This document shows, piece after piece, positions 4,068 to 35,850 of a stretch of 45,313 bases of DNA. The notes beneath the pieces were generated by a model. It searched no databases, was not told the DNA's origin, and saw only the letters and a program-made list of their open reading frames with translations. The DNA comes from a virus. Both the position numbers and the translations under genes were made by a program. The stretch is taken from positions 1 to 45,313 of IMG/VR virus record IMGVR_UViG_3300042406_000036. The stretch is one strand, 5' to 3'. Every line of letters starts with the position of its first letter. The first letter of the stretch is position 1.

Positions 4068-4723
4068 TGGCTAATTATACGTGGTCGTTCTCATCACTCA
4101 AGCAATATCAAAACTGCCCTAAACAATACTACGAATTAACTGTTGCTAAAAACTATACTCAAATACCGTCGCAGGCTATGATTTATGGTAATCAAGTGCA
4201 TAGTGCATTAGAACACTATGTTAAAGATGGTAAAGAGCTTCCTAAAAACTATCAACGATTTAAACCTTTAGTAGATGATGTAATAGCTATTCCAGGAGAC
4301 AAACTTCCAGAACATAGAATGGCACTTACTAAAGAAAAATCACCATGCACATTTGGCGCAGAAGAAAGATGGGTAAGAGGCATTGCCGACATGGTTATTG
4401 TTGACGATGACTATGCCTTCATTATAGATTATAAAACTGGAAGCGATAAATACCCTGACCTAAAACAATTAAGACTGATGTCGCTTATGACGTTTGCTCA
4501 CTTCCCTCACGTAAAAAAGGTTAAAGCAGGGCTTCTATTTTTAATGCACAATAACTTTATGCCTGAGGAATATCATAGGGATGATATGGATAAATCTTGG
4601 GATGCTTTTAAAGTGCCTTTAACTCGGCTAGAGAATTCTTATGACACTAATACATGGCTTCCAAACCCTACGCCACTATGCAAATTCTGTCCAGTAAAGA
4701 CTTGCGAGTTTAACAAGACCTAA
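4067..4723 (+). CDS. Cas4/RecB-like PD-(D/E)XK nuclease with probable iron-sulfur site
   Basis: A 218-residue single-strand nuclease of the RecB/Cas4 type. It begins with the family's usual opening (SFSSLKQYQNCPKQYY) and carries H45, D108 (GIAD), D121-x-K123 (IIDYKTG) and Q134 (QLRLMSL), the metal-binding core. Cysteines C17, C205, C208 and C213 match the one-plus-three layout that holds a 4Fe-4S cluster in Cas4 and AddB. In phages such proteins act in recombination, end resection or genome processing. There is no CRISPR locus nearby, so a role in spacer acquisition is not implied. Confidence 0.85.
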   Translation: MANYTWSFSSLKQYQNCPKQYYELTVAKNYTQIPSQAMIYGNQVHSALEHYVKDGKELPKNYQRFKPLVDDVIAIPGDKLPEHRMALTKEKSPCTFGAEERWVRGIADMVIVDDDYAFIIDYKTGSDKYPDLKQLRLMSLMTFAHFPHVKKVKAGLLFLMHNNFMPEEYHRDDMDKSWDAFKVPLTRLENSYDTNTWLPNPTPLCKFCPVKTCEFNKT

Positions 4724-4737
4724 GATATAATAACGCC

Positions 4738-5052
4738 ATGCCTTACGTAAATAAACCCAGACCTTATAAGAAAGAATACGACCAACAAAAAGCTCGTGGT
4801 GAACACGAACGTCGTATGGAACGTCAGCGTGGTCGTCGTTCTATTGATAAAAATGGTAAGGATTTAAATGGTAATGGCAAGGCTGATATGCGAGAAGGCA
4901 AAGACGTAGCTCATGTTAAAGCTCTCGATAAAGGCGGTTCAAACAAGAACGGATTACGCATTCAAAGTGCATCTAAAAACCGTTCATTCAAAAGAGACTC
5001 TCAAGGTAATTTAATTTCCGAAGTAAGTAAAAAAGAACGTAAGAAAAAATAG
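4738..5052 (+). CDS. HNH-like nuclease-type small protein
   Basis: A 104-residue, very basic protein. Residues 55-83 resemble an HNH (beta-beta-alpha metal) fold: D56-VA-H59, a KGG turn at 65-67, N71 and N81 (SKNRSF). The N-terminal 35 residues are a charged helix (YDQQKARGEHERRMERQ). The usual second acidic residue before the first histidine is alanine and the last motif position is asparagine, so activity is uncertain. I recall related small proteins in replication regions of other phages. It is separated by 14 bases from the nuclease gene and is the last gene before a promoter. Confidence 0.55.
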   Translation: MPYVNKPRPYKKEYDQQKARGEHERRMERQRGRRSIDKNGKDLNGNGKADMREGKDVAHVKALDKGGSNKNGLRIQSASKNRSFKRDSQGNLISEVSKKERKKK

Positions 5053-11378: not shown

Positions 11379-11571
11379 GCTACAAGAACCTGAATGGATA
11401 TTTCCATTTGAATATATGAGTATAGGAGAAAGTTTTTTTGTGCCTACTATGGAAACAGCCCAAATGGTATATGCTATAGAGGCAGGTGCTAAGAAAGCTA
11501 AGATAGGTATTAGAGTATATATAACGCAAAAAGAAAATCACTTAGGCGTTAGAGCTTGGCGAGTTAGTTAG
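11371..11571 (+). CDS. small conserved phage protein, unknown
   Basis: A 66-residue protein beginning MSELQEPEWIFPFEYMSIGESFFVPT. The pattern F-x-MxxGESFFVP followed by a helix (AGAKKAKIGIRVYI) and a strand is one I recall from short phage proteins placed after replication genes; their role is unknown. It overlaps the primase-helicase gene by 8 bases. Its stop (11569-11571) overlaps the 3' end of the opposite-strand giant gene, so it is the last gene of the plus-strand operon. Confidence 0.6.
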   Translation: MSELQEPEWIFPFEYMSIGESFFVPTMETAQMVYAIEAGAKKAKIGIRVYITQKENHLGVRAWRVS

Positions 11572-14500
11572 ATTCTATTTCATCTATCATGTTTACGTTA
11601 TATGTAATCTGACGTTTAATGATGTTTTGTTCTTCTTTAATAGGTTCAAGTAAAGACTTTCTATCTTTAGGGCTAAGACCTGGCATTCTTCTTATTTTAT
11701 TAGCTCTTTCTCTTAGATCATTCAATCTTCCATTTACTTGCTGATTATACATTTTTACAAGAGATGCATCAAACGGGTGTTCTGAAAAGTAGTCTGCGTA
11801 TTTTTCAGGGTTAGTTTTAAACATTTTTAACAAGCGTTCTTTCTCTCTAACACTATCTTCCATCTTAGAAAATTCTCTTTGGTCTACGTTAGATTTAGTA
11901 CTAATAAAACTTTCTAGAATAAATAAATCACGTTTAGCATCAAAATCTTTTTGACCTGCAAGAGTTAAGCCTAGACCATATCCGTTATGCATAATTCTAG
12001 TTAGGCCATCCATATAATTGTTAGCAAAGAAATATAATGAATTAGGACTTGCATCTACACCCCAATTATCTGCCATGAATCTAGCTGCATCTTTGTATGC
12101 ATCGGGAATATTATCTCCACCTGTATACGCATTACCAAATCTTGATTGTCTGTTGTTATAAATTTCTTGGCCGAATGCGTTCATATTCATAGCATATTCA
12201 AAGAAAGGTCTAGCTATCGATGGTGTTACAGAATCCAATACAAATGCTGAAGGGTTATCAACCATATTAATTCTAGATACAGGTAACGGTACAAAAGAAT
12301 CTAAACCAATATTAATAACATTACTAAATATATCTGCTAAGTCATTTGTTTTAGAAGACATAGCCCCTGCTATTTGAGCCCCTGCAGCCATAAAACCACC
12401 AAGACCAAAGCCCCACGGTATCTGTACTACTTTATCTTCACCAATATCAAATCGTGCAAATCGAGTCCAACGAGATAAGTCATCATTAATAATCTTATTA
12501 CGACCTTCATCGTCATCATCAGCTAAACCCGCGGACATTAAGTATATAGTAGCACCAGCGCCTAATAAGGATAGTACAACCGTTGCAGCCGTTCTACTTT
12601 GTCTTCTCCAATTAACTTCATATTCAGCTAATGCTTTAGGATCTTTAGTAATAGTATCTGGTAATGATTTCTTTACTGACTCCCAACTTCTTAACATAGG
12701 ACCAATAGATTCAAAAGCACGAACAGCGCCTGTAGCAGACGGACGGAAGAATACAAATAGTGCACCTAATGTTTTACCCCACTCACCAACCTCTTCAAAG
12801 TTAGCTAATTGTTTTGCAAATACAGCCCCTGCTTCTTTAGCCGCATCACCCTTAATACCCCTTGCTTCAGCATCTGATTTAGCTATTCTATATGCTGCTG
12901 ATCTTGCGGCTAATTCAAATGTAGACACCCAACCATCAAAGAATGGGTCTATTTGCTCTTTAACCTTTAAAATCTTACTTTGATTTAATTCTTTATATAA
13001 TTGACCTAATTGACTCTTAACAGATAAACCTTGCACAATAGATACAAGACCGCCTTGCTCAATATAGTCAATCATATCCGCTGAGTATGGGTCTTTTTTA
13101 GCTAACTGTCTTAAACCTTGTATATCGCCTTTAGCATATAGCCTTGCCACTTTATTAGCTTTAAATAAACCGCCATTAGCGACTTGAGCACTCACAGCGC
13201 CTATATATTTAAATGCCTCTACAGGACCAATATCAATAGCCATCACAAACGCATTAGTTAATGTATCACGTACAAAGTTAAGTACGGGGAACGCAGGGTT
13301 ATAACGGGTATGAGACTGACCTATTAGACTAGTAAATCTATTAACCATATCTAGCATAGGATGTGAATCTTTATATGTACGGCGTATAGATTCTAATAGT
13401 GCTGGATCTTTAATACGAATTACGTCCATAGAACCATCTTCATTATGGTGCACAATAGAGCTACGTTGATTAATTAAATTTTTAGCTTTGTCATCTAACC
13501 CTTTGTATATTTCTCCTGCAGTATAACTAGCTACAATATCACCATCAATTATTTTTTGATTCACTGCATTTTTAATAGATTGAGTTAAACCTTTTCTACC
13601 AGCCCTTGCAGCAGCCAACGCGCCTTCAACCATTGTTTGTATAATAGGATCTTCAGCCTCAGTTAATCTACCCTCAAATGCATAAGGTGAATCTTTTAAC
13701 TCAGCACTTAAACGTTTATCATCTAATTCTAAGTCTGCTACGTTATTAGGCATCTTACTTGCTGGTCTTCCTTTTAATGGTATATAGTGCTGCCAATTGT
13801 AGAACCGTTTAATATTATCTGTAGAGTTAGACCAATAGTTACCTTGTTTATTTAGTTCTATGGTTGCATCTTGTATAGGTTTAAGTGCCGCAATAACTTC
13901 GTCTAATAATTTTTTATTAGGGCTTTTATTATATATAGCTAATATTTGTTGGACATCTTGTGAATTTAACTCAGCAGTTACGTTGTAATCGGCACTTTGT
14001 TCATCAATAGATTTATATGCACCTTCACCAGCTGGGTCTTTATACTTAGCCACAAGGTCTTCTAGTTTATTACGCAATGCTTGTATTTGATTATCAGACA
14101 AACTGTTAGTAGTAGCTATAGCTCTTAATATCTTTTCTCTTTCATCAGCTGCGCTAGTAGGATTACCATTTCTATCAACTAAATTTTTGTTAACGCTTAA
14201 CGGTACTGTCTTTAAAAACTTAACATGTCTACGTTCAGGTTCATGTAAGGCTTCAGCATATTCATGTAACTCAGCAAGTGCAGCGCCAACAGATTTATTT
14301 ACAGCTTTTGCATATTGATTAATTAAGTTCTGTAATTTTTGAACAGGAGCCATCAAGTATTCTTTATTTCTAAAGTCAGCTTCACCAAATGCTAAAGAAA
14401 TTTGATCATAGATATTAGTAAAATTAGGTCCACCTACAGTAATCTTCTTTGCCTTAGTTAAATCTTGTTGCCACTTCTTAATTGCATATCTACTATTTTG

Positions 14501-17437
14501 GAAACGAGTAATAAGTTGATCCCTAGCTTTTTCACCTATAAGAGTTTTATTAATAGTTTCTACTGTAGTAGGTCTATGGTATTCAGATACAGTTAATCTT
14601 TCTAATCGTTTTTCTCTATCATACATCTTAGGCGCACCTGCTTGTTTTGGCGCAAATGAAATGCCTTTACCTGTAACACCTTTTTGAATGTCAGGCAGTT
14701 GATAGTTTTGGTCTGTAATAATACTTTCAATAAGGTCTAATGTCTCTTCCAATACAACAGGTTTAAGTCCTTTAAGACCTAATGAATCTAGTATAGCTTG
14801 AGCAATACGACGTGCTAACCCCTTAGCTTTTTGATATATTTTACCTGGTGGAGGCTCAAGGCTAGCTAGGGCTTGTTGGAAGTCTCTGTTTGTAAATGCT
14901 TCTGCAACAAATTCTTTTAGGTTAGGTATGGTAAATGTTTTACCGAATTTATTTACTGTTTCTTTACGTAGGTTTTCTAATCTATTTAATGCAGCTTTTT
15001 GTTCATTACTTAAGAATCCAGGCACATTACGATTATCAATAATGTGGTCCATCATGTAGTGCATTAACTCATGGGTAACTATCTGTCCTTCATGTCTATC
15101 ACCAAAATTATTTCTATCAATAGTTATAGTATTAGTAGATGGGTCAAACATACCAGGTTTATTACCGGGCACCTTACCATAAATAATATTTACATTACCC
15201 TTTAACTGTTTAACTCTATCTGCTAAGAACTTACCTAGGTTTTGGTAACTAAACTCATTAATAAACTCACCCGCTGTTTCTACTTCTTCAGGAGTAATCT
15301 CTGTACCTTGTGGACCTTTTTGACCGCGCTCTTTAATAAGTGCTTTTTTAGCAAGGAGTTGTTCGTTAGCTAGGTTGTCTTGTATTTTTTGTTGAACTGA
15401 TGCTTGTTGTTCAGGAGTTAAATTATTTATAAAATCTTGACGGACTTGAGCTTCTTTAATTTGAGCAGGAGTAGGAGCTTTTTTGTTATCATATTTTTCT
15501 TGCAAAGATAAAAACTCACCTTCAGTTAAAAAGTCGTAAGGTCTATCTTTAGTGAAGTTATATTGTTTAGATTTATAATTACCTACGCGTCTTTCAGCTT
15601 GTCGTTGGTTAAGTCTTTCAGTTTTCATTAACTTATCAATTGTAGCTTTACGAGCCGTTTGAGCTTCTTGAGTTTTTTCTTGAGCCATACGAGTAAGCTC
15701 TGCTTCAAATCCTTCTACATCTCTTAAGTCTTTCTTAATGAATGCTTCTTCTGCAGCTACAGAATCTATACCACGCTCTAATGTAAGAGGTGCTTCTTTA
15801 CCATAACTAGATTTAGTTTTTAAGTAAGGATGTAATGCATCATATTGTTCTTGACTAAGCTCTTGTTCATTTTTAGCAATAGCTTGCTTATTAGCTTCTT
15901 CAAGTTTTAATAGGCGTGACTTAACCTCTTCTGCTTCTTCCACAGATTTTTGTGCTTTAAGTTTTTCTTTTAAGGATTTATTACGCTGATCGAATAAGTC
16001 TTTAACAAGTGTAGGAGTTTCTAGTTCTAACTGAGCAAGTGTAGATTTATTTACTTTTGATTTTAAATAGTTTCTGACTTGAGTAGTATTTTTAAACTGC
16101 AAACCTTCTGCATCCATATCTCCTAATATAGACTCTTTTGTTAGTGCAGGTTGCTGTGTTCCCGCTCCAACATCAGCTGGTTTAGTATCAACTCTATCGC
16201 GAACCACTCCAGATCCGTCAGCTCCTTCAACGACTCCGGCAACTCCGCCTTCGGGTCCTCCAGATACTTGAACGCCTTTTCTAGGTTTTGTGGACTTAAG
16301 TTGTTCATCTATTTTTTCCTCTGTAGATAGTATATCATCTATATCTAAGTCTTCTAGTTTTTGTTTTGCAGGTTCTTGTTTATTAACATCGCCAGTTAGT
16401 GTTTCATCTTCTGTTGTAGGCGGGGGATTGGGATCATTTTGATTTGCTATTTTGGCATTATCTTTAGCTTGAGACAAAGCACTTGCGGTACCACCCATAA
16501 CTGCTCCAGCTAACATACCACTTGCACCTGCTTCTGCTACTCCTTCAAGAGGCGGTCTTCCCAAGTTAATGTTTTGCATAATCTGTTCTTGCATAGATTG
16601 TGGTAGTTCTTCAAAGGTAGACTCAACTAATGCTCCTTGCACTGCGGCTTTTAAAATACTTTTCTTTTCAGCGCCACTTATTCCACCAGCAAGTATAGTA
16701 TCAATATCAGCTACACCTAATTTTTGTGCAACCTTACCACCAAATATACCAAGGCCACCAGTAAGTGCACCACCTAAGGTAGCTACGCCGGCTTGTTCTG
16801 GAGTAATTAAACCTGATTCAGATTGTTGTCTTGTTGATTCTGCTATAGATCCAGCTGTAACCGCACCTTCACCAACGGCACCGGCAATTAATGGAGCAGC
16901 TTTTTTACCAGCTAATTTTGCTATTGATCCTACGGCGCCACGTGCAATACCTGCACCACCTAGCATAGTAGGAATAGATTCGGTTATCATACCAGCTAGC
17001 GCACCTGGTCTTTCTATGTATGCTTTAGCAGTAGGTAAGAACCCTTTAGTTTCTGCAATTTCTTTTTCTTCTTGTTGAGCTTCTGCAGATTTTAATTCTT
17101 GAAGTTTTTCACGGCCCTCTTGAGAAGTACCACCAAATAAAGCTTTTTCAGCTGCGGCTATACCTTTACCAGCCATACCCATAGTAGGAATATCAGCGAT
17201 ACCAGTTATAGCTTCTTTAGCACCTAATACACCTTGTAATGCACTGACACCTATGTCTTTTATGCTTTCACCAAACGTTGCATCTGGTGCTTCTTTAGGA
17301 GTGGTAACTAAAGGTTCTTCTAATGATGTGCCTAGTTTAGTGCCGAGTATATTTACTAAATCTTCTTTTGATGCGCCTGAAGGACCAGATAATAAATATT
17401 GTTTACCGTTAGGACCTGTTAATTTATATCGTGCCAT
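11564..17437 (-). CDS. giant polyvalent virion protein with metallopeptidase motif
   Basis: A 1957-residue protein at the end of the late operon. A short N-terminal module (YKLTGPNGKQYLL) is followed by a glycine/alanine-rich membrane-active region (about 60-320), low-complexity and lysine/glutamate coiled coil (330-720), a zinc peptidase motif H789-E-L-M-H793 with E842/E846 downstream, and long helical parts. From about 1378 (RYNPAFPVLNFVRD) it resembles the large polyvalent protein-associated domain 38. One hydrophobic segment is near 1610-1635. Such proteins are packed in the head and ejected with the DNA to open the envelope and cut or bind host targets. Start ATG 17437 overlaps the upstream stop by one base. 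Confidence 0.75.
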   Translation of the reverse strand: MARYKLTGPNGKQYLLSGPSGASKEDLVNILGTKLGTSLEEPLVTTPKEAPDATFGESIKDIGVSALQGVLGAKEAITGIADIPTMGMAGKGIAAAEKALFGGTSQEGREKLQELKSAEAQQEEKEIAETKGFLPTAKAYIERPGALAGMITESIPTMLGGAGIARGAVGSIAKLAGKKAAPLIAGAVGEGAVTAGSIAESTRQQSESGLITPEQAGVATLGGALTGGLGIFGGKVAQKLGVADIDTILAGGISGAEKKSILKAAVQGALVESTFEELPQSMQEQIMQNINLGRPPLEGVAEAGASGMLAGAVMGGTASALSQAKDNAKIANQNDPNPPPTTEDETLTGDVNKQEPAKQKLEDLDIDDILSTEEKIDEQLKSTKPRKGVQVSGGPEGGVAGVVEGADGSGVVRDRVDTKPADVGAGTQQPALTKESILGDMDAEGLQFKNTTQVRNYLKSKVNKSTLAQLELETPTLVKDLFDQRNKSLKEKLKAQKSVEEAEEVKSRLLKLEEANKQAIAKNEQELSQEQYDALHPYLKTKSSYGKEAPLTLERGIDSVAAEEAFIKKDLRDVEGFEAELTRMAQEKTQEAQTARKATIDKLMKTERLNQRQAERRVGNYKSKQYNFTKDRPYDFLTEGEFLSLQEKYDNKKAPTPAQIKEAQVRQDFINNLTPEQQASVQQKIQDNLANEQLLAKKALIKERGQKGPQGTEITPEEVETAGEFINEFSYQNLGKFLADRVKQLKGNVNIIYGKVPGNKPGMFDPSTNTITIDRNNFGDRHEGQIVTHELMHYMMDHIIDNRNVPGFLSNEQKAALNRLENLRKETVNKFGKTFTIPNLKEFVAEAFTNRDFQQALASLEPPPGKIYQKAKGLARRIAQAILDSLGLKGLKPVVLEETLDLIESIITDQNYQLPDIQKGVTGKGISFAPKQAGAPKMYDREKRLERLTVSEYHRPTTVETINKTLIGEKARDQLITRFQNSRYAIKKWQQDLTKAKKITVGGPNFTNIYDQISLAFGEADFRNKEYLMAPVQKLQNLINQYAKAVNKSVGAALAELHEYAEALHEPERRHVKFLKTVPLSVNKNLVDRNGNPTSAADEREKILRAIATTNSLSDNQIQALRNKLEDLVAKYKDPAGEGAYKSIDEQSADYNVTAELNSQDVQQILAIYNKSPNKKLLDEVIAALKPIQDATIELNKQGNYWSNSTDNIKRFYNWQHYIPLKGRPASKMPNNVADLELDDKRLSAELKDSPYAFEGRLTEAEDPIIQTMVEGALAAARAGRKGLTQSIKNAVNQKIIDGDIVASYTAGEIYKGLDDKAKNLINQRSSIVHHNEDGSMDVIRIKDPALLESIRRTYKDSHPMLDMVNRFTSLIGQSHTRYNPAFPVLNFVRDTLTNAFVMAIDIGPVEAFKYIGAVSAQVANGGLFKANKVARLYAKGDIQGLRQLAKKDPYSADMIDYIEQGGLVSIVQGLSVKSQLGQLYKELNQSKILKVKEQIDPFFDGWVSTFELAARSAAYRIAKSDAEARGIKGDAAKEAGAVFAKQLANFEEVGEWGKTLGALFVFFRPSATGAVRAFESIGPMLRSWESVKKSLPDTITKDPKALAEYEVNWRRQSRTAATVVLSLLGAGATIYLMSAGLADDDDEGRNKIINDDLSRWTRFARFDIGEDKVVQIPWGFGLGGFMAAGAQIAGAMSSKTNDLADIFSNVINIGLDSFVPLPVSRINMVDNPSAFVLDSVTPSIARPFFEYAMNMNAFGQEIYNNRQSRFGNAYTGGDNIPDAYKDAARFMADNWGVDASPNSLYFFANNYMDGLTRIMHNGYGLGLTLAGQKDFDAKRDLFILESFISTKSNVDQREFSKMEDSVREKERLLKMFKTNPEKYADYFSEHPFDASLVKMYNQQVNGRLNDLRERANKIRRMPGLSPKDRKSLLEPIKEEQNIIKRQITYNVNMIDEIESN

Positions 17438-18990
17438 TATGGTCCTGGTAATTCCTCTAGAGTAAAGTCTTCAGGATTTAGTGATGAAGTTGTATTAGCT
17501 AATCCTTGCTTATTATAAAAAGATTTAACTTTAGCTTCATTAGCAGCTATGTCTGCTTGTAATTTTTTAATTACAGCTTTTTGTTGTTCGTTAGGATTTT
17601 TAATTTTATTAAATATAGCTAGGTCTGCATATAGATCTTTATTCATTTTTAGTATTTGATCAACCATAGCTTTTGTATTGCCTACAGTGCCTCTACCTTG
17701 CATAGCAGCAATTTTACCTAAACCAATTTGTTTAGTTATATCATTTGCTTCTTTTTTAAGATCTAATTCTGCTAAACCTAATCTTTCTCTTTGTTGTAGA
17801 GCAGCTTGATGTTGATAGCTATTTTCACCAAATGTAATTGCAGCTTGTCTTTCAGCTCTATCTGCTTTAGCAGCTTCATTCATAAGTGCATAACGTTTTT
17901 CTTCTAGGTTAGCCATTCTATCTTGAGCAGCACCATATGATTGTAAACCAGCTTGAGCACCCGCACCAAGATTAGCTAATGCAAACGGAGATGTACCTTG
18001 CATAGTTTTAAACCCAGCTTCTGTAAGAGCCATCCACGGCGCCATTTCTTCTTGACGTGCAGCACGAGCTTCCATAGCTTCTATTTTTTTATTTAGTTTA
18101 TCTCTATCTTCGTTAGAACCCATAAACTCTTTATAGATACCCATACGTTTACGCAAAGCATCTTCATATGATTCAGTAGCTTGTTGTGGTGCTTGTGTTT
18201 GAGCTACTTGTGTTTGAGTAGGTTGAGTTTTAACAGAGTCTTTAGTGACATTTTGTTTTTCTTTTTGTTTTTCTTTTTGTCTTTGTTTTTCTTGCTCTAT
18301 ATAAGATGTCATGTTAGGATCAATAGCATCTTTTTTATCATATACAGCGCCCCCTGGTTCAGGAGCAAAGAATGGAGATTGCTCTCTTAAAGCTTCTAAC
18401 TCTTTTCTTTTTTGATCGTATAATCTTTGATCAGCTTTTGTTTCCCTATCAAAAAAACCTCTTTTACCGCCAATAAGTGTAGGAATAGTTTCTTGAATTT
18501 TTTCATCTATTTTCTTACGCTCTTCACGTCTCTTACCAAAATCAGATTTTTTAACTCGTCCACTTATATCTAAATAGTTTATAAATCTTTCCATAGGAGA
18601 AGTAACTTCTTCTTCATCCCCTGCATAATAATTAGGATATACAGGGCCTCCCGGCGCAAATGCAACAATACCGCCGCCAGCAAAGTTTTCTTCATCATAC
18701 ATATCGCCTGTATCTAAACCCGCTACACCCTGATCTTCCATTTGCATTTGTGGTTGCCCAGCTAGCATCGCTAAACCGCCTTGGTCAGGCATTGTTTCTT
18801 GTCCTAAGTCTTCTGCTACACTTGTTTCGGGGGCTTGTTCGGCTTGGTATTTAGCGCGTGTATCTTTACGACGTTGTAACTCACTTAGGGCTAGGTAGCT
18901 AGGTACTTCACCTTGTGGATTTTGAACATAACCAATAAGTGCCTCATCAGCCACACCACGTAACATATTCTGTAGTTTAATAATGTTCAT
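17437..18990 (-). CDS. internal virion protein, glutamine-rich
   Basis: A 517-residue structural protein. Its N-terminus (VPSYLALSELQRRKDTRA, about residues 29-46) and a glycine motif at 103-115 (FAGGGIVAFAPGG) are hallmarks I recall from internal virion proteins of marine short-tailed phages. Residues about 230-270 are lysine/glutamine-rich low complexity, and 290-460 are alanine-rich helices likely to form coiled coils. It lies between two other virion genes with no gap to the gene in front. It probably forms part of the ejected core or the tunnel for DNA passage. Confidence 0.6.
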   Translation of the reverse strand: MNIIKLQNMLRGVADEALIGYVQNPQGEVPSYLALSELQRRKDTRAKYQAEQAPETSVAEDLGQETMPDQGGLAMLAGQPQMQMEDQGVAGLDTGDMYDEENFAGGGIVAFAPGGPVYPNYYAGDEEEVTSPMERFINYLDISGRVKKSDFGKRREERKKIDEKIQETIPTLIGGKRGFFDRETKADQRLYDQKRKELEALREQSPFFAPEPGGAVYDKKDAIDPNMTSYIEQEKQRQKEKQKEKQNVTKDSVKTQPTQTQVAQTQAPQQATESYEDALRKRMGIYKEFMGSNEDRDKLNKKIEAMEARAARQEEMAPWMALTEAGFKTMQGTSPFALANLGAGAQAGLQSYGAAQDRMANLEEKRYALMNEAAKADRAERQAAITFGENSYQHQAALQQRERLGLAELDLKKEANDITKQIGLGKIAAMQGRGTVGNTKAMVDQILKMNKDLYADLAIFNKIKNPNEQQKAVIKKLQADIAANEAKVKSFYNKQGLANTTSSLNPEDFTLEELPGP

Positions 18991-20100
18991 CTATTTCTTT
19001 CCTAAGATATTATAAAGTCCTAACCCGGCTAAACCTACGCCACCTAATTGTGAAGCTAGGCTTGGAGCTGGCGCATATTGTACTTGAGTTGTACCCAACG
19101 CCGCTGCATTACCTCTAAGGATTTGAGATAAATAATCAAGCTGTGCTTTTTGATAGTTTTGTTGTTCTTGGAACTGTTGATATTTAAGGTTATCAATCTC
19201 TTGTTGTAACGCTTGTTTTTCACCGGCACTTGCGGCTTGTGCTTTAAGTCTTTCAAGATCAGCTGTTTGTTGTGTCGCTGCTAGCGCACCTGTTTTAGAA
19301 GCACCTTCAAGACCTGTTTGTAGACCTGCAACACCAAGCTCTTTACCAAGACCTGCAGCAAATTGTTGTCCTTGTTGACCTAGTTCAGCCGCTTTCATAC
19401 GACGAGCTTGATCTGCTTCAAACATTTTTTGTGCATTCTCATATCCAGCCTGTGCACCTTTAGCTCTAATATCCCCTATGTTTTGTGCTAGATTTCTATC
19501 TTGTTCAGCTTGTATTAAACCTTGACGCGCACCACCAAATGTACCGCGTTGAATAGCGCCTAATGCGCCACGAGATCTTTCTATATCACCTTGACGACGA
19601 GCTTCACGCACTGCAATATCTGTTACACCTGTTTGATAAGGACTAGCATAGTATGCCGCTGCGGAAGGATCAAACGTACCGCCAGAAATAGCTGTAGGAG
19701 CATAGCCAAATGCTTGACTTAATCCTAAGCCAGCCGTACCAAAACCCATGGAAGTACCTGTACCTAACCCTTTAGACGCTGCACCGAAATCACCTGGTGA
19801 AGTCATACCCGCTACTTCTTTTTGTACTCTTTCTTGTTCTGGTGTAAACCCTGCTACACGTTCACCTGTATAAGGTACATAAGGTTTAACACCTGTAACA
19901 TTACCTGAGGCATCAGTAGAATATACTTGTTTACCACCTTGTTTTAAAAGCTCTTCATAGTATGGCTTTGCATATTCAGGTAAATTTGTAGAGACTGAAG
20001 TTTGAGTTGTAGGTTGAGGACTACCGCCGCCGCCTCCGCCACCAAGATTAAAAGTGAAGTAGCCTACAAGCTTATCTACCCAGTTAAATAAATTCATCAT
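18991..20100 (-). CDS. internal virion/core protein, glycine- and alanine-rich
   Basis: A 369-residue protein. A hydrophobic N-terminus with a run of seven glycines (20-26) leads to a conserved-looking motif (LPEYAKPYYEELLKQ, about 39-53) and PYTGERVAGFTPEQE. The rest is alanine/glutamine-rich helix (RGTFGGARQGL, then a glutamine-rich coiled coil at about 270-330). GGAG eight bases before the first of two ATG codons supports the start. It overlaps the GNAT-like gene (ATGA). In related phages such proteins belong to the ejected internal set; this is inferred from neighbours and composition. Confidence 0.6.
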   Translation of the reverse strand: MMNLFNWVDKLVGYFTFNLGGGGGGGSPQPTTQTSVSTNLPEYAKPYYEELLKQGGKQVYSTDASGNVTGVKPYVPYTGERVAGFTPEQERVQKEVAGMTSPGDFGAASKGLGTGTSMGFGTAGLGLSQAFGYAPTAISGGTFDPSAAAYYASPYQTGVTDIAVREARRQGDIERSRGALGAIQRGTFGGARQGLIQAEQDRNLAQNIGDIRAKGAQAGYENAQKMFEADQARRMKAAELGQQGQQFAAGLGKELGVAGLQTGLEGASKTGALAATQQTADLERLKAQAASAGEKQALQQEIDNLKYQQFQEQQNYQKAQLDYLSQILRGNAAALGTTQVQYAPAPSLASQLGGVGLAGLGLYNILGKK

Positions 20101-20510
20101 AAAGTTTTCTCCACTACGTGTGTTACCGCGTTAAGTCCTAATTTCATTTTAAAAAGCCTAGCTTGCGCATCTTGTGCATAAGCTCTAATCTTTGTAACTC
20201 CTTGAAGTTTTGCCCAATCTTCATATTGCTTTACAGTATCTTTATCAAACACCCCTTTACCGCCCATAGACGTTGTATGTGCTACTCGATGATTAGGATA
20301 ATTAATAACTTCTACAGTAAAGGCCCCTATAATTTTTTCATCTTCTACAACTACAAACAAATACTGATACTGCTCAATAATTAATACTTTAATGTGTTCT
20401 ACATCATAATCAGCATTATTAAAATTAATGAACGCCGTTTTTAACATGGGCTCTACAACATCCCATATAGTATAAATATATTCAGGTGCTACAATTTGTA
20501 CCGATTTCAT
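20097..20510 (-). CDS. GNAT-fold acetyltransferase-like protein in the virion module
   Basis: A 137-residue protein with the strand-helix order of GNAT enzymes: a helix-rich start, paired strands (YLFVVVEDEKIIGAFTVEVI, about 50-69), a loop with SMGGKG (80-85) at the place of the acetyl-CoA pyrophosphate loop, a helix (TVKQYEDWAKLQ) and a final strand pair (KIRAYAQ, then the LFKMKLG helix). It is coupled on both sides to structural genes. I recall similar proteins in this position in other marine phages. Target unknown; it may be carried in the particle or may have become structural. Confidence 0.55.
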   Translation of the reverse strand: MKSVQIVAPEYIYTIWDVVEPMLKTAFINFNNADYDVEHIKVLIIEQYQYLFVVVEDEKIIGAFTVEVINYPNHRVAHTTSMGGKGVFDKDTVKQYEDWAKLQGVTKIRAYAQDAQARLFKMKLGLNAVTHVVEKTL

Positions 20511-22925: not shown

Positions 22926-24898
22926 TAGTTTCTTGTTCCGTCTGGACGTGCATCAACTCTTGGCATACCTAGTTGCCACTGTGTACCTACAGTATCTGAT
23001 GCAATTCTAAAATTCATTTGACGGCCACGGGCTCTAATAAATACTTGGTTTGTATATTGATCAACGGTAGCTGTCGCAGTTACAATCGTAGCACCTGTAG
23101 AAACACCTTCTGCATTTGTAGTAGATGATGCAGCACCAGGGAAGTTACGTACGCCTACAGTAATATCAGCTTCAGGAATAATTGCGGCACCTGTTACTTC
23201 ATTATTAGTATCAGAACCTCTAAAGTTAATATCAGGAATAACACGACGTATCAACATATATTTATCACCGTCATCAATGTCAACGTCAGCAGATTGAATA
23301 AACGAAGTAATAGGAAGTGGAGCAGCTCCTAAAGGTTGTCCATCGTTTGTACCATTTTCATGTTGATATACCCAACCATTAGATAGTCCTACAGGGTTAT
23401 TAAATACACCAGAGTCGATCCATGCTGTTCTTGATAATTGTCCATAGTACCAAATGTTTTCAAGGTAATTAAAGACTACATAGCGATCAATCTCAGATGA
23501 GTTAGCAGAACAATAAAACCAAATAATCTCTGTAAATTTATTATTAACACCTGCAAAAATAAGCGCACTTTGAGTAAAGTTAATATCAGTAAATATATAT
23601 TGTCTGATTGTACAAGGTAATGTATCTACACGACCAGAGTATGTATAGAATCTATCTCGACCCATCCAGTAAGTAATATTGTTAGAACCTACAAGTGCAT
23701 TAGCCCCAATGATAGAAATGTTATGAGATAACTCTTGTAAACCAAATACTTCAGCCGTGCCTAAAAATTGAAGTGAGCTAAGAGATGTATTAGTGAATAC
23801 TAAAGTTTCTTGTCGGGTATTAATTGCAGTCACAATTCTTGAACCTGATTGAAGTCGTAAGAACCCTGCAGTGTTAGTAGTTGTAGGCTGCCAATTTTCG
23901 GGTTCAGGACCAATATCCGGATCAACATTAGACCAACGAATAAGTAGTGGATCATAAGTTCCTAAATAATCAGGTGCCGCCGCTGTTGCATCATAGTTAG
24001 TACAACCTAATGCAAGTAAGAAACCTTGTGGTGTAAATAATATCTTAGTAACTTTTTGTGGTACAGCAATCGCACCTGCTAATGATTTTAATAAAACTGC
24101 ATCATTACTAAACGCTGTGTTATATATCCAATAATAAATTTCACCACCTGTACCTGACACAGTATCGTATTGTGTATTAAACACTAGATCATTATTAAAC
24201 TTATCCATAAAGATAAGACGTGCAGGTTGGAATATAGGTGACGTAGAACCAGAACCCCAAGTTGATCTGCCCCAAGTAGAAGTACCCCAGCCATAACCTG
24301 CAGTAGCTATAGGGAATCCGGCAGGCATATAAACAATTGCTATAATTGCTGTACCACCTTGACCTGTTGTAGTTGAAGTAGCAGTAGTCGTTGCTTGGAA
24401 TGTAAATGTATTAGAGTCTAGCACTGTCACTTGAACAGTTGTATTCATTTCAGTTACAGGTATACCACCAATCGTAGGACCAGCAATACCACTAAATGAT
24501 ACATAAGTTCCTGTAGTAGCGCCATGACCTGTTATAGTAACTGTAACTGTTTTAGAACCATTTGTCGTACCTATACAATTACTAGAAGAAGGTGTAGTAG
24601 CATTAGTGTAGGTAGCATAGACAGGTGTGATGTCATGTAATGTTGTACCTGCACCTACATAAACTCTTGAGTTAGTGCCAATACCTAATAGATTAGACCC
24701 GTCAGTGGTTGACCATGAGAATATAGCACGTGCAGAATCTGTGTATTGATTTAAGTTTGATACAGTCCAACCACCAAACTTTTCAGGAAAGCCTGATCTA
24801 AAGCGGACGAGCTGAGTCTCATACCAACCGCCTTCTGAAGCATAGTTAGTTTGATCTCGGTTAACACCGGGTTTAAATAATAATTTACTTAGTGACAT
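22925..24898 (-). CDS. tail nozzle / packaged-DNA stabilisation-like protein
   Basis: A 657-residue beta-rich protein. The N-terminus (FKPGVNRDQTNYASEGGWYE, about 8-27, then VRFRSGFPEKFGGW) is the typical opening of the phage stabilisation/nozzle family related in position to P22 gp10 and T7 gp12. Repeated motifs such as MGRDRFYTYSG and WFYCSANSSEIDRYVVFNY look like propeller blades. Residues about 105-185 form an inserted Ig-like small beta domain (HGATTGTYVSFSG, then VLDSNTFTFQ). It would close the tail tip and hold packaged DNA. One-base overlaps link it to both neighbours. Confidence 0.7.
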   Translation of the reverse strand: MSLSKLLFKPGVNRDQTNYASEGGWYETQLVRFRSGFPEKFGGWTVSNLNQYTDSARAIFSWSTTDGSNLLGIGTNSRVYVGAGTTLHDITPVYATYTNATTPSSSNCIGTTNGSKTVTVTITGHGATTGTYVSFSGIAGPTIGGIPVTEMNTTVQVTVLDSNTFTFQATTTATSTTTGQGGTAIIAIVYMPAGFPIATAGYGWGTSTWGRSTWGSGSTSPIFQPARLIFMDKFNNDLVFNTQYDTVSGTGGEIYYWIYNTAFSNDAVLLKSLAGAIAVPQKVTKILFTPQGFLLALGCTNYDATAAAPDYLGTYDPLLIRWSNVDPDIGPEPENWQPTTTNTAGFLRLQSGSRIVTAINTRQETLVFTNTSLSSLQFLGTAEVFGLQELSHNISIIGANALVGSNNITYWMGRDRFYTYSGRVDTLPCTIRQYIFTDINFTQSALIFAGVNNKFTEIIWFYCSANSSEIDRYVVFNYLENIWYYGQLSRTAWIDSGVFNNPVGLSNGWVYQHENGTNDGQPLGAAPLPITSFIQSADVDIDDGDKYMLIRRVIPDINFRGSDTNNEVTGAAIIPEADITVGVRNFPGAASSTTNAEGVSTGATIVTATATVDQYTNQVFIRARGRQMNFRIASDTVGTQWQLGMPRVDARPDGTRN

Positions 24899-25347
24899 TA
24901 TCTACCCTCAAAGAGTGCTTTCTCATCTAATCTACGGATTTGTAGACCTCGTAGTATTTTACCACCTGCACGACAATATTTCACTAACGATTCCATAGCC
25001 GCCTTTTTATCGCCGCGTAGAAGCGCTTGACGGAGTGTTGATCTTTGAAAGCATCCAAGGCCCAAATTGAAGCAAAAACTAATAATAGCGTCAAATTCAT
25101 GTTGTCGAAGAGACACGTTAGGTAGCATCTTATGTACTCCCAACTCGAAGCGACGTAGGTCGGATTTAAGAATTCCATCTATTTCAGCTTCCGTAAAAGT
25201 TCTATTCCAAGATTCAGGCAACGATTTACCATCACCAATAAGATGACCCACGCCCACAGTGAACAGGCCAGCAGGACAACGGTAGGGCCGATTACGCACG
25301 CCTTCATGATGTTTAATAAGTTTGATAGCACGTTCTGATACTTTCAC
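24898..25347 (-). CDS. endolysin, T4-type lysozyme (GH24)
   Basis: A 149-residue muramidase that cuts peptidoglycan at lysis. The catalytic triad of the family is visible as E15, C24 and T30 (KHHEG, then PYRCPAG and LFTVGVGH), with the usual spacing of 9 and 6 residues. Cysteine replaces the aspartate of T4 lysozyme, as in many phage enzymes. Residues 82-98 (QHEFDAIISFCFNLGLG) are the second family block. No signal peptide is present, so release needs a holin; the next gene upstream in the operon is a holin candidate. Confidence 0.9.
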   Translation of the reverse strand: MKVSERAIKLIKHHEGVRNRPYRCPAGLFTVGVGHLIGDGKSLPESWNRTFTEAEIDGILKSDLRRFELGVHKMLPNVSLRQHEFDAIISFCFNLGLGCFQRSTLRQALLRGDKKAAMESLVKYCRAGGKILRGLQIRRLDEKALFEGR

Positions 25348-30093: not shown

Positions 30094-31002
30094 TTATTTA
30101 CAAGGCTGTGATGTATCAATTGCGCCCCAACTTGGTGTTTGAGCATCGTTCACATCTACCCAGACCCCAGCAGGTGCAGGTCCAATAGCAGCCCAAGCTG
30201 CAGTTTGTGAATCATCAATCTTAAACCAGCCGTTATAGCATAAATCATCAAGTAGCGTAATAGCCTCTGTAATAGAAGTAGCAAAATTAGCCACCACAAC
30301 ATAAGAGTCTGCAGGGCTGACGTTTTCTGCGATACTTTGTACAAAGTTAGCTGATGTGATGTTGGCATCAGCCACGTTAACGTTCTCTGTAATATCAAAC
30401 GTAAATATAGAGATAATTGTTTTTAAATCATCTAGCGTAATGTCTTCTGCCCTTGTGACACTAAAGTTAGCAGTGATATTATTTAAGTCAGCTAGGTTTA
30501 TATTCTCAGTTCTAGATACTGCGAATTGAGCAGTCACGGTAGCATCATCGGCTACGTTTATATTTTCTGTATCTGAAGCTACAAAGTTTGCAGCTATGGT
30601 TTCAACGTCGTTTAGATCTGCATTTTCTGTAATGCTTTGTAACGCTGCAAAGTAAGGTATAGCTTCTTCTTGGACTCCGATATTTTCTGTGTCTGATGCA
30701 CTAAACTGAGCGCTTATATTTTCTACATTGTTAACAGCAACATCTTCTGTGATACTTTGTAAGAACGTTGATAATTGTGTACTTGCGTCTGCTAATCCTA
30801 TGTTCTCATTTAGTGTACCTATGAAAATACCTGCGGGAGAATTTAAATCTCCAACCTCAATATTCTCTGCAACATTTTGTGTAAAGCTCCAGACTTGGCT
30901 ATTTGCATCGGCTACCCCAATATTCTCAACTAAAGAAAATACAATCGCATTACCCGCTAAGGAAGCAAAGGTAGGTTGAGCAAAGGCAGCGTATCCAAAC
31001 AT
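30094..31002 (-). CDS. virion protein made of eleven 20-residue repeats
   Basis: A 302-residue protein. Residues 26-245 are eleven consecutive repeats of exactly 20 residues with no insertion or loss. The pattern is E-[ND]-[IV]-x-[VL]-x-D at the start and F-x-x-S-I-T near the end of each unit (examples ENIGVADANSQVWSFTQNVA and ENINLADLNNITANFSVTRA). A partial twelfth repeat leads into a C-terminal pair of W-x-x-I/V-x-D motifs (WFKIDDSQTAAW and WVDVNDAQTPSW). Such regular units fit a beta-solenoid or stacked beta shaft. It begins inside the stop of the adhesin gene in front (TAATG). Confidence 0.65.
   Translation of the reverse strand: MFGYAAFAQPTFASLAGNAIVFSLVENIGVADANSQVWSFTQNVAENIEVGDLNSPAGIFIGTLNENIGLADASTQLSTFLQSITEDVAVNNVENISAQFSASDTENIGVQEEAIPYFAALQSITENADLNDVETIAANFVASDTENINVADDATVTAQFAVSRTENINLADLNNITANFSVTRAEDITLDDLKTIISIFTFDITENVNVADANITSANFVQSIAENVSPADSYVVVANFATSITEAITLLDDLCYNGWFKIDDSQTAAWAAIGPAPAGVWVDVNDAQTPSWGAIDTSQPCK
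30268..30927 (-). repeat. eleven tandem 60-base repeats inside a virion gene
   Basis: Eleven in-frame units of 60 bases code for the 20-residue repeats. The bases are much less conserved than the protein pattern, so the repeats are old and kept by selection on structure and not by recent copying. Confidence 0.7.
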
Positions 31003-31988
31003 TATGCTGTATATGTACCTGATGTTGTGAATGTATGATATGTGTATCCACCGCTTGAAGTGACTGTACCACCTGTACCTCTTTGAGCACCGGGGTAGCG
31101 AATAACAACAATACCTGATCCTCCAGCACCTCCAGTACCACCACTGCCCCCTGCTGAACCACCGCCACCACCGCCACCGCCACCTGTGTTTGCAGTTCCT
31201 GCAGTTCCTGTACCTGTACCAGCTGCACCGCCTCCACCGCCACCACCCGAACCGCCACTACCAGCAGCCGATGAACCTGAATAATTACTAGCTCCACCAC
31301 CACCACCGCCAGAATAAAGAGTTGCTCCAGCGGTTGCAAAATAACGAGTTGTAGTTCCCTGTCCTACTCCGCTATCATAAGCACTATATGCTCCATTGCT
31401 TCCATCAGTACCACCATTAGCAGCAGCGCCATAAGCAGCATAACTACCACCACCACCGCCAGAACCACCAGCTGTCCCTGCGTAGTTACCAGCACCTAGA
31501 TTTCCTCCTACACCTCCAGCAGCTGAATAAGTTGTCCCACTAGATACAAGAGAAGAAACTTGCCCTGAAGTGTAAGCTGCTCCACCAGCACCTACCGTAA
31601 CAGTTGAAGAAACTCCTGTTGAAATAAATAAGCTTGAAGTTGTTGTATATCCACCTCCACCTCCACCACCTGATGCATAAACACCAAACCCACCACCAGC
31701 TCCGCCACCAACAATAAAATATTCTACGGTATATCCAGCTCCAGAAGTACCTGCGTTCTTCCATGTATTAGAATCTGTATTATAAACTTCGATTTGACCT
31801 GTTGTAGTATTATATCCAACGGTTCCCATACTTGGGCTTCCAGGGCGTGTAGCTGTAGTCCACACAGGAAAATTTAATTGGCCTGTAACAGTAGGCGAAG
31901 TAATCGTAGGCGATGTACCTAGTACAACAGTTGATCCTGTTCCTGTAGTGGAAGTTAAAAGCGCTGGTGGGACTTGTGTTAATGGCAT
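31002..31988 (-). CDS. glycine-rich tail adhesin, array member
   Basis: A 328-residue protein. The N-terminal part has the shared anchor module (VWTTATRPGSPSMGTVGYN near 41-59, then QIEVYNTDSNTW), followed by a strand (YTVEYFIVGGG) and a long glycine-rich region with runs such as SGGSGGGGGGG. The end (VVIRYPGAQRGTG...TTSGTYTA) keeps the family's final TA but otherwise differs from the other members. The start has AAGGAT in front of it, inside the stop region of the next gene upstream. A receptor-binding role at the fibre tip is likely. Confidence 0.6.
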   Translation of the reverse strand: MPLTQVPPALLTSTTGTGSTVVLGTSPTITSPTVTGQLNFPVWTTATRPGSPSMGTVGYNTTTGQIEVYNTDSNTWKNAGTSGAGYTVEYFIVGGGAGGGFGVYASGGGGGGGYTTTSSLFISTGVSSTVTVGAGGAAYTSGQVSSLVSSGTTYSAAGGVGGNLGAGNYAGTAGGSGGGGGSYAAYGAAANGGTDGSNGAYSAYDSGVGQGTTTRYFATAGATLYSGGGGGGASNYSGSSAAGSGGSGGGGGGGAAGTGTGTAGTANTGGGGGGGGGSAGGSGGTGGAGGSGIVVIRYPGAQRGTGGTVTSSGGYTYHTFTTSGTYTA

Positions 31989-31997
31989 GATTTATCC

Positions 31998-32130
31998 TTA
32001 TGCTGTATATGTGCCTGAAGCTGTAAATGTCATAATTGTATTAGAACCTGAAGTTGTTATAGTAGGGCTTCCTGTAGTTGTTCCTGTATATTTTGATGTA
32101 GGGATTGAAATAATAACTACTCCTGAACCA
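31998..32130 (-). repeat. shared adhesin end module, copy 4
   Basis: Codes IPTSKYTGTTTGSP to SGTYTA. It sits behind a body with a different N-terminal anchor, which shows that the end module moves independently of the anchor. Confidence 0.55.
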
Positions 32131-32876
32131 CCAGATCCACCACCAGATCCACCACCACCTCCACCACCGCCACCAGTATTCGCACCGCCACCGCCTCCAT
32201 AATTAGCGCCACCACCTGCGCCACCTGTGCCTGTTGTAAAAGGAGAAGTACCTAATCTGCCTCCACCACCACCAGCATAAAATACTGAAGAGCCTGTGAT
32301 AGAAGATGCTAATCCACTACCTCCATTAGGAGTACCACCAACTGCGCCAGCGCCACCACCTCCGCCACCACCATCACTGTTACCTACACCGCCATTATTA
32401 CCTTGTCCAGCTGTACCTGATCCAGCAGAGCCATTATTAGTTGATGCACCACCTGAACCACCACTTATACCAGTATTATTACTTCGTCCCGCTCCCCCAC
32501 CACCACCTGTAGATGTGACTGTAGTTATTCCTGTTCCACTTAATACTGAATCTGATCCTGATCCACCACGATTAGTACCACCAGCACCACCACCACCAGC
32601 ACCTACAGTAATGGTATAAACTGTGGTACTAGATAATGTTAAAGATCCAGTTAAAAACCCCCCTGCTCCACCACCACCAGATTGTGTTCCATTAATGTTA
32701 TCCCCACCACCGCCACCACCACCCGCAACTACTAAATAGTCAGCAGTAATAACTTGTAATGGCCAGGTGCCGTTTAAAAGAGCTTCTTGTATTTCAGATA
32801 AAGAAAATCTACCTTTTGCACTAGAGGTTGAAGTGGTATTAAATTTACCCACTATTCCGCCATTATGACGTTTCAT
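31998..32876 (-). CDS. glycine-rich tail adhesin, array member with different N-terminus
   Basis: A 292-residue protein. It begins with a different attachment block (KRHNGGIVGKFNTTSTSSAK, about 2-21, and RFSLSEIQEALLNGTWP), then YLVVAGGGGGGG and glycine-rich blocks with GSLTLSSTTVYTITVGAGG and ITGSSVFYAGGGG. The last 45 residues are the shared end module (GVVIISIP, YTGTTTGSPTITTSGSN, SGTYTA). Start and stop overlap neighbours or share the AAGGAT junction. It is likely a tail-tip adhesin whose body is exchangeable between anchors. Confidence 0.6.
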   Translation of the reverse strand: MKRHNGGIVGKFNTTSTSSAKGRFSLSEIQEALLNGTWPLQVITADYLVVAGGGGGGGDNINGTQSGGGGAGGFLTGSLTLSSTTVYTITVGAGGGGAGGTNRGGSGSDSVLSGTGITTVTSTGGGGGAGRSNNTGISGGSGGASTNNGSAGSGTAGQGNNGGVGNSDGGGGGGGAGAVGGTPNGGSGLASSITGSSVFYAGGGGGRLGTSPFTTGTGGAGGGANYGGGGGANTGGGGGGGGGSGGGSGGSGVVIISIPTSKYTGTTTGSPTITTSGSNTIMTFTASGTYTA

Positions 32877-33235
32877 TAATTTATTTCCTCATAAGACACA
32901 ACAATCTCTAAGTCTCCATTAGCAGAGGCTAAAGCTGTAATTTTGTCACCTTCTTCAAGATAAATATGTTTGCTTATTAAGTCTAATGTTGCATCGGCAG
33001 GGACTGTAATCGTATGAGCTAATTTATATGATGTTGTATTATCAGCATTAAAAAAAGATACTGTAGCGTCAGCGTTACTTGTACCATCAACGTTAGCTAC
33101 ATAAATAGCATTTATTTTAAATACTTTACCACTAGCTGCTGAATTAGTGACAATATCTGCACTACTTGTAGTAAGAGCTGCTCCTGTGGTTTTTCCTGTA
33201 ATTGTTGTTACATTGACTATATTAGGTGCTGCCAT
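32876..33235 (-). CDS. small beta-rich virion protein
   Basis: A 119-residue protein. The start is ATG 33235, with GGAGG at good spacing; a TTG five codons earlier would overlap that ribosome site. The strand-rich sequence (VFKINAIYVANVDGTSNADA, then TVSFFN, HTITVPADATLDL, KHIYLEEGDKITALA) has the look of a jelly-roll minor tail or fibre-base protein of a type common in marine phages. It overlaps the following adhesin gene by one base. It may be a fibre connector. Confidence 0.55.
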   Translation of the reverse strand: MAAPNIVNVTTITGKTTGAALTTSSADIVTNSAASGKVFKINAIYVANVDGTSNADATVSFFNADNTTSYKLAHTITVPADATLDLISKHIYLEEGDKITALASANGDLEIVVSYEEIN

Positions 33236-33236
33236 A

Positions 33237-33452
33237 TTAACTTCCTCCAAATACTATTGACATAGCAATAGACTTTCCTGTTGTAGTTATAGATTGCCAA
33301 GAACTTCCGTTATAATATTCTGGTGAGCTTGTAGTTGTGTTATATCCAATCTGCCCTGTTAAAGGTAAAGATGGACGAGTTCCTGTAGTCCATGTAGATA
33401 TGGACGTTCCTCCGCTAGAACCTAGTGTTGCTACATTGACTGCGTATGTCAT
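33237..33452 (-). CDS. short protein holding only the adhesin anchor module
   Basis: A 71-residue protein with the module seen in the glycine-rich adhesins (STWTTGTRPSLPLTGQIGYN, then TTSSPEYYNGSSW) but without any glycine-rich body or end module; it finishes with SIAMSIVFGGS. It could be a separate short fibre component, a spare anchor or a remnant of a longer adhesin. The reading frame is intact and spacing to both neighbours is tight, which favours a working gene. Confidence 0.5.
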   Translation of the reverse strand: MTYAVNVATLGSSGGTSISTWTTGTRPSLPLTGQIGYNTTTSSPEYYNGSSWQSITTTGKSIAMSIVFGGS

Positions 33453-33456
33453 TTAG

Positions 33457-33771
33457 TTATCCTTGTGGATCTTGTGGTAATTCTGGTGCTTGAGCTTCTG
33501 TATCTTCCCATAACCATGTTGTTTCGTTTAACACTGCTGTGTCTGATGGTTTAGGGGCATAGAATACATCGTTTACTGCATCGTATGTAAACCCGATTCC
33601 TGCGTAGTTACCTCTTAAAGGTCTACCTTCTGGGTGTTGATTGCCATACGTATTATAACTTGTTTGTAGCCAAGTACCTGGACTTGAATCTACGAATGTA
33701 TCAAAAAATTCTGGTTCAGCCACGATGACCTGTGTTACTTTACCGTCTACTACTTTTGCAAAATGTGACAT
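33457..33771 (-). CDS. conserved marine-phage virion-region protein
   Basis: A 104-residue protein beginning MSHFAKVVDGKVTQVIVAEP, with FFDTFVDSSPGTWLQTSYN and NYAGIGFTYDAVNDVFYAPKP. I recall this family from many marine phages, including T4-like cyanophages, where it lies in tail-fibre regions; no biochemical role is known to me. Here it is placed inside the adhesin array. A ribosome site (AAAGGAGAAA) lies before the ATG. Confidence 0.7.
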   Translation of the reverse strand: MSHFAKVVDGKVTQVIVAEPEFFDTFVDSSPGTWLQTSYNTYGNQHPEGRPLRGNYAGIGFTYDAVNDVFYAPKPSDTAVLNETTWLWEDTEAQAPELPQDPQG

Positions 33772-33790
33772 TGTTTTTCTCCTTTAAAAA

Positions 33791-34864: not shown

Positions 34865-34873
34865 TATTTATCC

Positions 34874-35842: not shown

Positions 35843-35850
35843 GTTTTATC

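Follow-up and report, generated by a model that had tools for sequence, protein, structure and literature searches.

We analysed a stretch of 45,313 nucleotides (nt) of viral DNA (IMG/VR record IMGVR_UViG_3300042406_000036, positions 1 to 45,313; hereafter the window) and focus on the gene of a giant protein, P0001, and on the short exchangeable tag at its N terminus. The gene lies on the minus strand (17437->11564) and forms one open reading frame (ORF) of 1957 amino acids (aa); stops crowd the plus strand there. A preliminary description of the same DNA had reported a 1957-residue ORF at 11564-17437, and this holds, on the minus strand. The genes concerned, and the two short elements at the junction between the last two, are as follows.

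11564..17437, minus strand: P0001, giant polyvalent protein of ejection type, encoded third in a row of three genes (from ORF, translation and family).
17437..18990, minus strand: 517-aa gene directly upstream, putative ejection protein 2; PHROG and Pfam scans of the protein returned no family.
18991..20100, minus strand: 369-aa DNA ejection protein (ejection protein 1; phrog_4287, E 7.5e-10).
17330..17437, minus strand: exchangeable N-terminal tag of P0001, residues 1-36, GPxGK type, class A (sequence comparison).
17440..17481, minus strand: C-terminal tail of the 517-aa protein, putative partner of the tag (sequence comparison).

The stop of the 517-aa gene shares 1 nt with the P0001 start. 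P0001 is encoded among late genes, behind the DNA ejection protein gene and structural genes, as polyvalent proteins are, and the replication genes (DNA polymerase, helicase, primase/helicase) are convergent to it. From gene order and domains, we infer an uncultured short-tailed phage with three ejection proteins, of which P0001 is the largest and the last in gene order, occupying the position of T7 gp16, P22 gp16 or N4 gp50. By analogy with its relatives, it would be ejected with the DNA.

We collected 80 related loci (L002 to L081) from two viral-contig scans, the second of which is represented by the best 80 of 199. One of them, L002, is identical to the window; the nearest non-identical relative is L003. 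Ejection protein 1 has a tblastn match in 54 of the 80 loci. Scanning bacterial genome contigs with the P0001-family alignment returned no close relatives, and the matches in the phage collection were distant only: residues 60-321 are 38% identical to F116-type Pseudomonas podophages, and parts of residues 1177-1949 match Vibrio, Stx-converting and Burkholderia phages at 21-25%, some of these proteins being annotated as DarB-like. An NCBIfam scan of P0001 found no family and a direct Protein Data Bank (PDB) search gave a chance match only. At L015 (4091-11005), the giant gene is spread over four overlapping ORFs in different frames, which points to assembly errors or a broken gene.

The first 30-50 residues of the giant proteins are swapped wholesale between near-identical members of the family. 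The proteins of L018 and L025 have unrelated first 36-39 aa (a GPDGK-type versus an AGDxEAA-type tag) despite 98.3% identity over 2163 aa. DNA homology between the two loci ends 42-47 nt before the start codon and returns 126/117 nt after it. Because homology is lost before the start codon, the swap extends into the upstream gene and takes in its last ~14 codons; the exchanged unit, tag plus upstream tail, measures ~165 bp. The C-terminal tail of the upstream protein changes along with the tag. P0001 and L003 differ in the same two places, with a GPNGK-type versus a KYPQY-type tag and upstream tails DFTLEELPGP versus DPLGLLSQ. Pfam searches with five tags, including that of the window, found no match, and a PDB search with the class A and B tags returned nothing meaningful.

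We assessed whether tag and tail vary together. Loci L015, L033, L062, L073, L048 and L080, those cut at the 5' end and those lacking a readable upstream ORF were excluded, leaving 57 tag-tail rows. Tag and tail similarity were correlated (Pearson 0.48, reached in 0 of 2000 permutations; Spearman only 0.13), and the partial Mantel r was 0.41 after removal of three body similarities (0 of 2000 permutations), with P values that ignore relatedness. Among 36 pairs of giant proteins that are at least 60% identical, both tails were readable in 34. Tags were similar in 18 of these pairs, 15 of which also have similar tails; of the 16 pairs with dissimilar tags (8 with intermediate scores), none has similar tails. 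Single-linkage clustering of tags with the linker included chained 48 of the 57 into one group and was replaced by profile-based classes.

Searches with four tag classes fetched 266 further loci: the best 80 of 187 for class A, of 203 for class C and of 390 for class B, and all 26 for class D. A tail was found in 260, of which 213 are distinct. The tag begins with M at the ORF start in most loci (A 78/80, C 79/80, B 76/80, D 26/26), and an upstream ORF ends within -120 to +60 nt of it in 78 (A), 80 (C), 77 (B) and 25 (D). The tail motif that goes with class B (KYPQY-type) tags, DP[LFWI][GNDL][ILV], is present in 59 of 61 class B tails, in none of the 152 tails of other classes and in 1 of 1809 background C-termini; the class D motif occurs in 20/22 versus 35/1809 in the background. 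Nearest-neighbour comparison of the tail alone gave the correct tag class for 210 of 213 loci, while shuffled labels reached at most 40%, and leaving out every locus with upstream or downstream homology that BLAST can detect did not alter the result. The codons of DPLG use every synonymous form while the residues stay fixed, so the constraint on the tail acts at the protein level. In the class B upstream proteins of L288 and L282, the DPL motif occurs two times (DPLGLSGNAGADPLGIR; EEDPLSDDPLGIR), as though there were two docking sites. Another tag type, found in LPD38 loci such as L031, L039, L068 and L074, is built from two copies of a short motif (NFWENDPEV..NFWENDPVV; LPPGFTLV..VPPGFRLV) and has its own tail type.

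The same pairs occur in named phages. Class A tags were examined in eight phage records (8 of 11 found), where the carrier proteins range from 435 to at least 2039 aa. Outside the tag, none of the eight resembles P0001 at E 1e-3, only two pairs show a weak match among themselves, and all eight are preceded by a strand-like aromatic-x-[VI] tail. Class B tags are found in phages of Vibrio (4), Thalassomonas (BA3), Shewanella (X14), Ruegeria (45A6) and Pelagibacter (HTVC106P); the upstream protein ends in DPLG[IL]R in 8/8 of these (8 of 21 found). In genome contigs, class B tags have DP[LI]G[IL] in 5 of 7 loci and DPLEL in one. In Ruegeria phage 45A6 (L368), an open frame at 4519-4989 ends in NDPLGLR just before the giant gene and extends past the annotated end of the upstream coding sequence (4855); the record probably contains a frameshift or an annotation error.

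Pairs of this sort also sit on ejection proteins of the P22 and Sf6 type. One class B tag (L276) belongs to a 654-aa DNA transfer protein of the P22 gp16 type (phrog_770), 29% identical to P22 gp16 over 227-647. P22 gp16 itself has a class D tag at its N terminus (profile E 1e-6), and the gp20 tail before it ends in KFTVE. Vibrio 1.061.O has a class C pair. Sf6 and phage L have a third pair type in common, NFSSLWGD with MAKAWKDV; the pairs of P22 and Sf6 differ. P22 carrying Sf6 gp16 alone or Sf6 gp20 alone gave <1e4 plaque-forming units (PFU)/ml, and 5e10 with both (PMC10883804). The authors concluded that an interaction between gp16 and gp20 is required and that the versions from the two phages cannot cross-interact; gp20 lacking its last 33 residues was inactive (PMC10883804).

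We propose that the tail at the C terminus of the preceding ejection protein is the docking site for the N-terminal tag of P0001, that docking would couple both ejection proteins either within the virion or on their way through tail and envelope, and that tags and tails come as matched, exchangeable pairs. Physical docking is what we infer from the observed co-variation and cassette exchange. More generally, short-tailed phages probably use a modular docking code in which exchangeable tail/tag pairs couple ejection proteins head to tail. The docking pairs, a reading that we likewise consider likely to be right, are the new part of this analysis; the peptidase described below is of a kind already known.

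The main rival to docking is linkage: adjacent tag and tail would be carried together by recombination at a conserved junction, perform separate jobs and never touch. This would fit the adjacency of every pair found, usually within -4 to +15 nt, the single cassette that carries both elements, and the lone off-site motif match among 1809 C-termini. It is harder to reconcile with a tail under protein-level constraint in which synonymous codons vary freely, with the absence of mismatched class B or C pairs among the 213 distinct loci (0), and with the persistence of class B pairs across 15 upstream and 10 downstream BLAST families. In P22 and Sf6, moreover, gp20 and gp16 must match (PMC10883804). 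We regard linkage without contact as unlikely.

Several observations nevertheless weigh against our interpretation. Relatedness is ignored in the P values given above, no non-adjacent tag-tail pair was found (every pair is adjacent in the DNA), and one locus (L356) has a tag without an upstream tail. Three of the 213 tails were misclassified. The class A tail motif, although present in 57 of 60 tails, is loose (356/1809 in the background), and the first class C pattern recovered 30 of 70 tails, so that the figure of 69/70, with 0/143 elsewhere, comes from a refitted pattern. The tail of the window fails to align with class A tails (best score 16, compared with 21 for class D), though its tag is clearly class A (97), and its tail type is found only in L005, L006 and L008. 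Since the gp20 proteins of P22 and Sf6 can be aligned over residues 1-239 only, the incompatibility of the two phages need not lie in the tail. For the peptidase, N4 gp50 is not self-degraded (PMC12633501). Taken as one joint explanation, P0001 as an ejected, tag-docked giant protein with a zincin-like peptidase and an LPD38 module is in our judgement fairly probable.

How large injected phage proteins are loaded and ordered is an open question. If the docking interpretation is true, unrelated giant cargo proteins could be attached to the ejection machine by swapping a ~165-bp cassette, and the code would account for the failure of gp20/gp16 combinations between P22 and Sf6. If readable, such a code would also allow compatible ejection proteins to be identified from sequence alone, and cargo attachment would become a simple binding experiment.

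Behind the tag, the proposed domain order is a Gly/Ala-rich region, a variable linker, a zincin-like metallopeptidase (MPTase) domain and a 1000-residue LPD38 module, with the following features.

16433..17299, minus strand: Gly/Ala-rich N-terminal region, residues 47-335, common to F116-type Pseudomonas podophages (phrog_30335, E 4.4e-47).
14723..15235, minus strand: zincin-like MPTase domain, about residues 735-905 (conservation, profiles and model).
15059..15073, minus strand: HELMH motif, residues 789-793 (sequence).
14912..14914, minus strand: E842, predicted third zinc ligand (invariant, 75/75).
11567..14566, minus strand: conserved C-terminal module, residues 958-1957, mostly helical (alignment and model).
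11975..12460, minus strand: Pfam LPD38, residues 1660-1821 (E 1.1e-15).

The preliminary description had proposed a zinc peptidase site in a polyvalent, probably ejected protein, and family, conservation and gene order all support this. HELMH lies at residues 789-793, and E842 and E846, the two candidates named for the third zinc ligand, are placed as described. An HExxH motif is expected in P0001 about 0.01 times by chance, given its composition. The absence of the motif from homologues had been named as grounds for abandoning the idea; HExxH is present in 78 of the 80 loci, once in the main ORF of 77 and in a neighbouring ORF of the broken gene at L015, and the remaining two (L021, L028) start downstream of the site. 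We aligned 75 distinct domains, omitting L002 as identical to the window and L048 and L080 as duplicates. H789, E790, H793, E842 and F843 are invariant in all 75, while identity in the columns outside this set averages 17%. Position 846 is Y in 39/75 and E in 28/75. Because E842 is invariant while position 846 varies, E842 is likely the third zinc ligand, and we rejected E846. The zinc site would then be H789/H793/E842, with E790 as the base.

An AlphaFold2 model of residues 679-958 has a mean predicted local distance difference test (pLDDT) score of 78; the helices that carry HExxH and E842, with their surroundings, reach ~90 or more. The model's helices 105-123 and 162-171 hold the HEXXH motif and the downstream glutamate, the arrangement that defines polyvalent MPTase domains and that is present in 75/75. 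Foldseek found no significant match to the model in the PDB (best E 0.27). The best VIA comparisons, all below the Z 8 guide, were with N4 gp50 (Z 7.5; root-mean-square deviation (rmsd) 5.1, 163 aligned), the PhiM1 ejectosome protein (Z 7.0; rmsd 5.8, 111 aligned) and anthrax lethal factor (Z 7.0; rmsd 4.4, 140 aligned). Profile comparisons of sequence give stronger evidence: the peptidase-domain profile (A2) matches the internal virion protein 9sfn_G (E 9e-19) and the PhiM1 ejection protein gp48 (8vb2_A; E 3e-9), both aligned over HExxH. Of the 75 members, 55 match phrog_2206 (virion RNA polymerase), the match being confined to the MPTase part, and 4 match phrog_87 (metallo-protease). An MPTase domain with HEXXH and a helix glutamate, its presence in N4 gp50 and its possible roles were described by Iyer 2017 (PMC5512222), and the peptidase domain of P0001 is, judged by its sequence, another member of this kind.

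In PhiM1 gp48, residues 379-527 match the P0001-family profile, including HEAAH and a downstream EF; because the match covers both, this stretch may be a zincin. The PhiM1 paper labels TEP 268-528 as endolysin/exotransglycosidase-like (PMC11440229). Besides correcting the third ligand, the peptidase analysis thus suggests that the PhiM1 TEP domain may be a zincin rather than a wall-cutting enzyme.

What the peptidase does admits three other accounts. The preliminary description suggested that it processes its own protein or other ejected proteins at entry. Iyer 2017 proposed autoproteolysis for domains of this kind and cited P1 DdrB as an instance of processing, yet N4 gp50 is packaged unprocessed (PMC5512222). 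Recombinant N4 gp50, which contains the HExxH domain, showed 'no evidence of degradation' (PMC12633501), which speaks mildly against self-cleavage, and the linker before the peptidase is highly variable. We find processing at entry rather doubtful; an enzyme that acts once ejected, with an envelope protein, a host protein or a partner as its target, seems more likely than self-processing. We have a similarly low opinion of the idea that the domain is a structural element of the ejectosome, possibly metal-bound, without proteolysis. The domain has an ordered structure within PhiM1 virions (8vb2) and belongs to C1 of N4 gp50, and the passages available from these papers report no activity of the PhiM1 or N4 domain; a purely structural role sits poorly, however, with a complete HExxH + Glu set that is invariant in 75/75 in a domain otherwise so variable. 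A wall-cutting enzyme that opens peptidoglycan during entry, like the T7 gp16 transglycosylase, would suit a gp16-type protein and the PhiM1 label, but it is quite improbable since the profile matches the PhiM1 stretch as a zincin with HExxH and not as a glycosidase, the Pfam scan found no transglycosylase family in P0001, and the window has a separate lysozyme-like ORF (24898-25347), named from sequence only.

Further claims had been made for the other regions of P0001. The Gly/Ala-rich region had been called membrane-active, for which we found no support: no 19-residue stretch within residues 51-335 exceeds a mean hydropathy of 1.3, and the only strongly hydrophobic stretch of this length in P0001 is 1620-1638 (mean 1.81). 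The resemblance of the C-terminal region to LPD38 was confirmed by the Pfam match, which scores 58.7 bits against a cut-off of 27; LPD38 is among the domains expected of a phage polyvalent protein. The C-terminal module (958-1957) is the best conserved part of P0001 in an alignment of 78 sequences, and its model has a pLDDT of 80. Foldseek against predicted viral proteins (BFVD) gave 85 matches at E <=0.001, several of them named LPD38; a PDB profile search with the module gave none, and VIA returned helical look-alikes only (best Z 6.8).

Elsewhere in the window, a small acetyltransferase gene (phrog_1249; 20097-20510) lies amid the ejection genes, and acetyltransferase genes near ejection genes are also found in Stenotrophomonas BUCT555 and Ochrobactrum OH. 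At 31002-36915, several neighbouring Gly-rich proteins with a common C-terminal pattern, SGSNTI..F.ASG.YTA, look like repeated paralogues of tail-fibre type.

We compared P0001 to known systems. Like the polyvalent proteins of Iyer 2017 (PMC5512222), it is large and multidomain, encoded by a late gene, and has HEXXH with a glutamate in a later helix and LPD38. It differs in having few catalogued enzymatic domains besides the MPTase, and the available text of that paper does not mention an exchangeable N-terminal tag. N4 gp50 likewise has an HExxH C1 domain followed by a helical C2 of ~1100 residues, and its N-terminal domain is proposed to contact the C terminus of gp51 (PMC12633501). Its T7-like RNA polymerase domain was not found in P0001, where Pfam detects LPD38 only, and the LPD38 module has no detected match to C2; because VIA gave helical look-alikes only, it speaks neither for nor against a likeness to C2. 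PhiM1 gp48 (8vb2) and 9sfn_G have a zincin-like domain by profile and are shorter than P0001 (1263 and 1337 aa), and the PhiM1 paper annotates the domain otherwise. The gp20-gp16 pair of P22 and Sf6 resembles the window in its adjacent genes and tag-tail pair, and there matching partners are required genetically (PMC10883804). In contrast to the window, a peptidase is not shown in these proteins, and the Sf6/L and P22 pairs are other tag types. T7 gp16 has an N-terminal transglycosylase, which Pfam and PHROG scans did not find in P0001 and which P22-type gp16 lacks as well (PMC8954989). Reviews and preprints bring the corresponding ends of ejection proteins together in other phages: T7 gp16-N stabilises the gp15 C terminus (PMC8954989), and DEV gp71 may stabilise that of gp72 (PMC10925440). 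Our literature search, which did not cover subscription papers, found no publication on docking domains in phage ejection proteins or on the tag and tail motifs. The docking domains of polyketide synthases (PKS) and non-ribosomal peptide synthetases (NRPS) are short C- and N-terminal elements that pair consecutive proteins and are exchangeable. The likeness is one of arrangement only, as there is no common sequence family (0 Pfam matches with the five tags) and the setting here is phage DNA ejection. We do not class the tag of P0001 as a PKS/NRPS docking domain, although it may work like one.

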